NCBI RefSeq assembly: GCF_003369445.1
Contig: NZ_QRCU01000006.1
Span: forward strand, 1-64,000
Direction: 5' to 3'
Origin: Arthrobacter silvisoli
GTDB lineage: Bacteria > Actinomycetota > Actinomycetes > Actinomycetales > Micrococcaceae
Length of the DNA stretch: 64,000 nt
The notes beneath the pieces are model-generated. The model did no database searches and had not been told where the DNA came from. It saw only the letters and a program-made list of their open reading frames with translations. How positions within the stretch are numbered: the stretch's first letter is position 1; every line of letters starts with the position of its first letter. The position numbers and the translations under genes are program-made. Below are positions 30,607 through 32,296 of the stretch, in pieces.

Positions 30607-31074
30607 CTATTCAGCGCCGTCCTTGGTGCCCCGCGCCTGCTGCAGATCCTTCCGGAGCCCGCGGTTGTCCGCCCGTAGTTCGCGGTTGTCCTCAGTCAGG
30701 CCCCGGTTGTCCTCGACCAAGCCGCGGTTGTCCTCGAGCAGGCCGCGATTGGTGGCTTCCAGTTCCAGCACCAGCTTCACCCCGGCCAGGTTCAGTCCTT
30801 CATCCAGGAGCACGCCGATCCGGCGCAGGGTGACGAGGTTGGCCTCGCTGTAGCGGCGGGTGCCGCCGCCGGTCCGTTCCGGCGTGAGCAGTCCCTTGCG
30901 TTCGTAGAGCCGAAGGTTCTGCTGGCCGGTGCCGACGAGTTCGGCCGCGACGGAGATGGCGTAGACCCCAAGGTGGTCCCGTCCGGCAGGCCCGCGGCCG
31001 GTGCCGCCGCCCGCTGCAGCGGCCGTGCCGCCGTCGTGCTCTCCGGCGGAAAACCCGCCACCCGGATCAGCCAT
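30607..31074 (-). CDS. MerR-family regulator, HspR-like, with heptad repeats
   Basis: 155 residues. A Gly/Ala-rich N-terminus of about 35 residues precedes a MerR DNA-binding domain (VYAISVAAELVG, NLRLYERKGLLTPERT, GTRRYSEANL). The C-terminal part is five consecutive heptads of the NRGLxED type, encoded by a 21-bp repeat, ideal for a dimerising coiled coil. It has no cysteines for metal sensing. It is divergent from hsp20, as HspR regulators often are from heat-shock genes. The ribosome site GGAAGG lies 5 nt before the ATG. Confidence 0.85.
   Translation of the reverse strand: MADPGGGFSAGEHDGGTAAAAGGGTGRGPAGRDHLGVYAISVAAELVGTGQQNLRLYERKGLLTPERTGGGTRRYSEANLVTLRRIGVLLDEGLNLAGVKLVLELEATNRGLLEDNRGLVEDNRGLTEDNRELRADNRGLRKDLQQARGTKDGAE
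30661..30754. repeat. 21-bp repeats encoding the HspR-like coiled coil
   Basis: The ten-base core GCGGTTGTCC or close variants recurs at 30661, 30682, 30703, 30724 and (degenerate) 30745, an exact period of 21 bp. Each unit gives one heptad, so unit number can vary without breaking the frame. Confidence 0.85.
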
Positions 31075-31094
31075 GAAAACCCTTCCGAAACCTC

Positions 31095-31123
31095 TTGCAC
31101 CTCTTTATGGCCAGTGCTATAAA
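31095..31123 (+). promoter_or_regulatory. Promoter of hsp20 with overlapping inverted repeat
   Basis: TTGCAC (31095-31100), 17-bp spacer, TATAAA (31118-31123): a near-consensus vegetative promoter. GCAC at 31097-31100 and GTGC at 31114-31117 form an inverted repeat across the spacer, where MerR-family proteins bind. The classical HspR HAIR sequence is not seen. Confidence 0.7.
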
Positions 31124-31203
31124 AAAACTATACCAGCCACCATAGATCAAGGAAGGCTGGGAACGGACAAATCAGCATCACGATCTGAAGGAGTGAGAAC
31201 CAA

Positions 31204-31626
31204 ATGCTGATGCGCACTGACCCGTTCCGCGAATTCGACCGGCTCGCCCAACAGGTTTTTGGCACAACAGCACGCCCCGCCGGCATGCCCATGGATGCGT
31301 GGCAGGAGGGCGAGGAATTCATCGTTGCCCTCGACCTGCCAGGGGTGGCCCCTGATTCCATCGAGCTGGACGTCGAACGCAACGTCCTCACCGTCAAAGC
31401 CGAACGCAAGTCGCCGGCGGGCGAGGACACCGAGATGATCGCTGCCGAACGCCCGCAGGGTGTCTTCAGCAGGCAACTCATCCTTGGGGACACCCTGGAC
31501 ACCGATGGGGTCAAGGCCAATTACGACGCGGGCGTCCTGACGCTCCGCATTCCGGTGGCCGAGAAGGCCAAGCCGCGGCGCATCGAGATCACCTCCAGCG
31601 GACAACGCCAGGAGATCAACGCCTGA
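31204..31626 (+). CDS. Small heat-shock protein Hsp20 / alpha-crystallin
   Basis: 140 residues. The alpha-crystallin domain spans about residues 35-130, with [19 protein letters not shown] and GVLTLRIPV. The N-terminal [12 protein letters not shown] is typical of actinobacterial Hsp20. It is an ATP-independent holdase chaperone. Two ATGs (31204 and 31210) follow GAAGGAG; the second is spaced less well. The J-domain gene downstream suggests a chaperone cluster. Confidence 0.93.
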
Positions 31627-31858: not shown

Positions 31859-32296
31859 GTGGGAAACAGCCACACCGACTACTACCAGATCCTGAACGTG
31901 CCGGTAACTGCCTCGGCGCGGGAGCTCGCCCGTGCCTACCGCACTCTGCTGCGGCGGTTCCATCCGGACACCCGCCAGGAAAGCGACGACGGCGGCACCT
32001 CCGCATCGCGCGACATCGAGCGCCTGCACGCCATCATGCAGGCTTACAGGGTGTTGTCTGATCCGGCAAAGCGGGCGGCCTACGACCGGGGCCGCCCTGG
32101 CGGTGCCGGCGCGGGGACCGCTGCGGGTCCTGCCACGGCGAACGGGACGCCTGTGAAGGTGCATTTTCACCGGCAGCCGGCCCACCCGCAACCCGGAACC
32201 GGCAGCCCCGTTCCGGACCAGCCGCTCAGCTACGGACCGACCCGGTGGTCACCCCTGCCCGGCAACCGGACAAGCTATCCAAGGAGACCTGTATGA
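31859..32296 (+). CDS. J-domain (DnaJ-like) protein
   Basis: 145 residues, start GTG. The N-terminal J domain (residues 6-75) has DYYQILNVP, the HPD motif in RRFHPDT, and YRVLSDPAKRAAYDRG. The remaining ~70 residues are Gly/Pro-rich and disordered; no zinc-finger or C-terminal substrate domain is present. It would stimulate a DnaK-type ATPase for a specific client. The stop overlaps the next start (ATGA). Confidence 0.85.
   Translation: MGNSHTDYYQILNVPVTASARELARAYRTLLRRFHPDTRQESDDGGTSASRDIERLHAIMQAYRVLSDPAKRAAYDRGRPGGAGAGTAAGPATANGTPVKVHFHRQPAHPQPGTGSPVPDQPLSYGPTRWSPLPGNRTSYPRRPV

Follow-up and report, generated by a model that had tools for sequence, protein, structure and literature searches.

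An HspR-related MerR-family regulator beside hsp20 in Arthrobacter silvisoli carries a C-terminal heptad array that varies by whole units

The regulator gene divergent from hsp20 in Arthrobacter silvisoli encodes a C-terminal array of seven-residue units, and related genomes differ in the number of these units. Such whole-unit change is real and widespread. The explanation towards which we lean is that the protein is an HspR-related MerR-family regulator of hsp20 with a dimer zipper adjustable by whole heptads, in which unit number would set the dimer contact or the surface offered to a partner. It is most likely a repressor of hsp20 and perhaps also acts on its own gene. The C-terminal helix would end in a run of Asn(a)/Leu(d) heptads forming the zipper, and recombination or slippage between units that share part of their sequence would add or remove whole 21-bp units. 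As the heptad register survives each unit change, the protein would keep working; and as the DNA site does not alter along with it, the number would set the strength or length of the dimer contact, or a surface for a chaperone partner, rather than the spacing of the DNA-binding heads. We infer repression, operator binding and dimerisation through the array, together with an effect on stability and the heat response.

Architecture of the regulator and its heptad array

The window, that is the whole stretch of 64,000 nucleotides that was analysed, contains the features listed in Table 1. The 155-residue regulator matched the MerR domain PF13411 well above cutoff (65.3 bits against 21.6), and fold comparison of an AlphaFold2 monomer model, built from a 44-row alignment, gave MerR-family chains among the matches (Z 8-11). 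Blockwise pLDDT in this model was 77-93 over residues 91-150 and 53 in the last block.

Table 1. Features of the regulator and hsp20 region in the window.
Feature	Position	Strand	Basis
HspR-related MerR-family regulator gene, 155 aa	30607..31074	-	ORF; PF13411 5.4e-18; NF047375 83.7 bits vs cutoff 105
MerR helix-turn-helix domain, residues 37-103	30766..30966	-	Pfam match range and structure model
Predicted single C-terminal helix, residues 96-153, holding the array	30616..30789	-	AlphaFold2 monomer model
Five Asn(a)/Leu(d) heptads, 21 bp each	30649..30753	-	Unit-by-unit reading
Capping heptad DLQQARG, Leu at a	30628..30648	-	Pattern [DE]L[KRQ]xA[RQ] in 37 orthologues
Putative hsp20 promoter TTGCAC-17-TATAAA	31095..31123	+	Read from sequence; recognisable in alignment of 45 loci
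Putative operator, variant of dyad ATCTATgyC-N4-GrcAtAGAT	31126..31147	+	Alignment of loci and dyad scoring
hsp20, divergent from regulator	31204..31626	+	Beside 37/37 array loci
J-domain protein gene, downstream of hsp20	31859..32296	+	PF00226 1e-16

Read on the minus strand, the array units are TNRGLLE (30733-30753), DNRGLVE (30712-30732), DNRGLTE (30691-30711), DNRELRA (30670-30690) and DNRGLRK (30649-30669). A preliminary description of this DNA had placed five NRGLxED-type heptads at 30661-30754; the array is real and has five units in register, but only four contain NRGL, the fourth having NREL, and that span stops 12 bases short of the end of the last unit. With Asn at position a and Leu at d, residues V102 (a) and L105 (d) before the array and L144 (a) after it also fit when read by eye. 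This agrees with the earlier proposal of a coiled-coil register, and the model predicts one long helix here.

A search of the genus matched the regulator in 190 of 206 genomes at 1e-20. The best 36 matches (1.8e-52 or better) all carried the array, the next match being at 2.4e-35; these 36 and locus L155, from a plasmid record of Arthrobacter sp. StoSoilB13, constitute our set of 37 array genes, whose named carriers include Paenarthrobacter aurescens TC1, P. nicotinovorans SSBW5 and Arthrobacter cupressi. With units delimited by the motifs on either side of the array, without use of Asn or Leu, all 151 units in this set had Asn at a and Leu at d, and position c was Gly in 122, Glu in 28 and Asp in 1. 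The array was 21, 28 or 35 residues long and never of another length; the N-terminal arm and C-terminal tail had many lengths.

The predicted helix thus has Leu throughout at d and, at a, Asn in place of a canonical hydrophobic residue. A coiled coil should be weakened by Asn in all a positions and Gly in the majority of c positions, and pairing may therefore not extend along the whole helix. Known MerR regulators are described as having antiparallel coils and CbpM a parallel one (PMC4063869, in the part available). Antiparallel pairing of the array would set Asn against Leu, and polar residues at a or d are reported to favour two-stranded coils (PMC8749076, from the accessible text). In our reading, the repeated Asn at a would favour a parallel, in-register pair.

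The same residues could be read as a thermometer, in which a weak Asn-rich zipper melts on heating and frees the operator, with unit number setting the temperature of melting, like a small TlpA. A core with Asn in all a positions is indeed unusual, polar residues being given as 17.6% of a and d positions in known coils (PMC8749076), and the accessible parts of the relevant reports state that TlpA acts by coiled-coil melting (PMC8564464) and that a mycobacterial HspR melts at 41.6 C, or at 47.8 C once the nine residues at its C-terminus are removed (PMC10415612). However, Campylobacter jejuni HspR is reported, in the portion of the paper available, not to be temperature-sensitive (PMC8533110), and hsp20 adjoins the regulator not only in 37 of 37 array loci but also in all eight one-heptad relatives checked. 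We regard melting as a long shot.

At the DNA level, Tandem Repeats Finder reported 30681-30751 with period 21, 3.4 copies and 82% matches. The 21-bp repeat described previously therefore holds in its period but is degenerate as DNA, with 12-16 of 21 bases common to any pair of units. Mean unit identity in the window array was 0.671, compared with 0.619 for random synonymous codons drawn from codon use pooled over the upstream parts of the 37 orthologous frames; 17 of 400 draws were as high. This null was exceeded, at no more than 20 of 400 draws, in 14 of the 37 genes and not in the other 23, the genes not being independent of each other, and the extremes were L008 (0/400 draws as high) and L010 (387/400, below the null). 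The array is a clear protein heptad repeat whose extra DNA-level repeat signal is weak, and the likeness of its units as DNA is mostly explained by protein identity and codon use. A hypermutable DNA repeat or switch was rejected on the divergence of the units and the minority of genes exceeding the codon null. Elsewhere in the window, a 62-bp tandem duplication is present at 1376-1503 (2.1 copies, 100% matches).

Unit number varies between genomes

Among the 37 array genes, two had three units, 30 had four and five had five, as counted between species genomes with one genome per species. Tails of 34 loci among the weaker genus matches, read by eye, had one heptad in 33 cases and two in L063. 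A tree of regulator-core and hsp20 DNA, with the array excluded and eight hand-picked one-heptad loci as outgroup, required six changes of unit number within the array clade, and its well-supported branches alone force four separate changes for the five-unit state.

The closest comparison was between L012 and L155, which come from different genomes, possibly of different species. They share 97.8% identity across 1925 aligned positions, and the difference in layout is one 21-bp unit. Any of 15 equivalent 21-base removals converts L012 to the L155 layout, which implies 14 shared bases at the break. Parsimony gives no preference between a loss in L155 and independent gains, but loss is favoured because the extra unit in L012 and the one next to it agree at 15 of 21 bases, so that divergence has already set in, and because L009 also has DNRGLKE units. 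Gain or loss without a frameshift, as put forward in the preliminary description, is thus borne out by this near-identical pair as well as by the species genomes, whereas rapid tunability is not supported, given the divergence of the units and the predominance of four. Insertions of 1, 2, 3, 4 or 6 residues are reported to disturb a coil (PMC5082667, in the part available), which fits change by whole heptads; however, unequal exchange between units would yield whole units anyway.

Regulator matches at 1e-16 were present in 207 of 394 genomes of a class-wide sample. The 28 loci taken from it (L177-L204) had one heptad in 15 cases, two in four, three in four, four in three and none in two, and the longer arrays fell in two other families, f11 and f3. 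In g49, the genus of G680 in family f11, 81 of 148 genomes had a match, and 89 of 95 listed places were counted: 15 with one unit, 11 with two, 55 with three, six with four, and one each with five and six. These runs begin at the same residue in 89/89 loci; they were counted by requiring Asn, so that Asn is invariant here by definition and loci with another residue at a, such as L214, are counted short. L214 itself has about eight heptads, with Asn at only some a positions, and no hsp20 was found in its stretch. hsp20 lay within the fetched stretch of 73 of the 89 loci, some stretches being short. A quick tree of a 75-residue core gave 19 changes of unit number in g49, which is a rough figure. 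The same kind of heptads also occurs on Rhodococcus plasmids. The earlier suggestion to compare repeat number had counted invariance against itself; the number instead ranges from three to five in the array genes and from one to six in g49.

Unit number may be neutral. A permissive tail could drift, with any in-phase number of heptads working equally well and selection acting only on helix phase. The concentration of orthologues at one number (30/37 at four, 55/89 in g49 at three) with scattered exceptions, the many changes in number, and an operator spacing without visible change are all consistent with drift. The invariance of Asn and Leu over 151 units argues that the units matter, although it does not argue this for their number, and we consider drift possible but somewhat doubtful as the full account.

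Relation to HspR

The designation HspR-like is appropriate for the fold of the regulator but not strictly for its family, as the protein scored below the cutoff of the HspR model NF047375 (Table 1). HspR proper is encoded by another gene of the same genome, located after dnaK, grpE and a dnaJ-type gene, and scores 143.1. HspR binds the HAIR operator, with consensus CTTGAGT-N7-ACTCAAG. The best match to this consensus beside hsp20 (31000-31260) had six mismatches, whereas a positive control region upstream of dnaK in the same genome contained two HAIR-like sites with three mismatches each (L074 2975-2995 and 3028-3048); sites with four mismatches are common, with 10 in the window. HspR is also described as having a conserved stretch of about nine residues near its C-terminus (PMC10415612, in the text available). 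By eye this stretch is absent from the regulator, which ends DLQQARGTKDGAE, while the HspR of this genome ends ALVVWRPRD. Filing the regulator as HspR was rejected on family score, HAIR site and C-terminal stretch: it is HspR-related and fails these three tested features.

The hsp20 promoter and a putative operator

Across the 45 aligned loci, the putative hsp20 promoter shows some variation in its -35 box and spacer. The putative operator starts two bases after this promoter, beside the -10 box, and in many g49 loci its dyad is near perfect (ATCTATGTC-N4-GACATAGAT). The position of the dyad, over the start region, is compatible with repression. Scanning spacers of 0 to 10 over 118 regions, with operator arms taken from the same sequences that were then scored, we found that a spacer of 4 was the single best in 108, tied in nine and beaten in one. 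The ties include the sole six-unit locus, and the single region beating spacer 4 is a one-heptad locus. The dyad scored 13/18 in the window and 12 in the six-unit locus, values reached by 1 and 4 of 118 shuffled regions, respectively; the window's dyad draws its weight from alignment with other loci, as alone it would not stand out.

The matching of unit number to operator spacing is disfavoured, since the 4-bp centre is near constant for one to five units. The dyad hardly changes, so unit number probably neither shifts the position of the DNA-binding heads nor retunes the geometry of the DNA site. The altered dimer geometry proposed in the first description is, as far as the DNA would register it, not what these regions suggest.

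Two further pairings were observed near the start of hsp20. An inverted repeat, CCAGCC/GGCTGG (31133-31138 with 31155-31160), lies where the hsp20 transcript probably begins and has a loop whose length varies between species. Over 32 loci, 92.1% of its cells were paired and four of six pairs had changed on both sides; it may be an RNA hairpin or a second protein site. An eight-base stem, ATCAGCAT/ATGCTGAT (31171-31178 with 31204-31211), pairs with the start codon of hsp20 and encloses AAGGAG in its loop. By eye, most array-clade loci keep it, and it is broken in L007, L009, L012, L022, L023, L155 and the one-heptad loci. Over 32 loci its eight pairs were kept in 88.6% of cells, the second pair being broken in seven of 32 rows and the innermost in eight, with change on both sides in only one of the eight pairs. 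This stem is a possible RNA thermometer of hsp20.

Possible roles of unit number

If the long helix is a docking surface, a chaperone such as the nearby J-domain protein could read it as CbpM binds CbpA, with unit number altering the contact. CbpM (3ucs_B) was one of the strongest fold matches (Z 10.7, 99 residues, rmsd 3.8), and the matched part of the model, residues 32-130, extends into the array. In two Rhodococcus plasmid regions, a related regulator likewise has HSP20 and J-domain genes nearby. However, a third such region has no annotated J-domain gene, and the CbpM match is mainly to the shared MerR domain, with a loose rmsd, TnrA chains ranking higher. We consider docking unlikely. 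A broad thermometer hypothesis, in which one to six heptads set the dimer-dissociation temperature of hsp20-linked HspR-related repressors across actinomycetes, strikes us as quite improbable; if it were true, lineages would shift their heat-shock point through gain or loss of a single 21-bp unit.

The arrays form a natural length series of one to six in-phase heptads with the same fold, usually the same neighbour gene and nearly the same putative operator, which lets one ask whether coiled-coil length tunes a bacterial repressor. If stability depends on unit number, evolution would have a simple dial for heat-shock set points; otherwise, the series shows how freely a zipper drifts once heptad phase is kept.

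Comparison with known systems

Among the titles and abstract openings listed in searches of open-licence literature on HspR, MerR regulators and heptad repeats, none reported this array. The regulator shares with HspR (NF047375) a MerR-type helix-turn-helix, a heat-shock gene neighbour and a helical C-domain; the heptad array is its own feature. CbpM likewise combines a MerR-like fold and C-terminal coiled coil with a chaperone context, but it acts on a co-chaperone, the J-domain protein CbpA, and pairs in parallel, and the part of that paper available describes no variation in heptad number (PMC4063869). TlpA, as presented in the accessible text, also joins a DNA-binding domain to a C-terminal coiled coil (PMC8564464); its melting has been demonstrated, and the likeness noted here is one of architecture.

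A variable number of tandem heptads is also found in the poly-psi domain of NeuO from E. coli K1, where activity is reported to rise linearly with heptad number (PMC3046976, in the part available). According to the same text, the NeuO repeats consist of 7-bp DNA units, which undergo slippage and phase variation to give 1-31 heptads, and these heptads were not resolved in the crystal and were judged not to be a coiled coil; those of the regulator are diverged 21-bp units in a predicted helix, and with 12-16 of 21 bases in common they are not near-perfect short slipping repeats of the NeuO type. From what is available of that report, NeuO is the closest precedent for a graded heptad number, reached by another mechanism.
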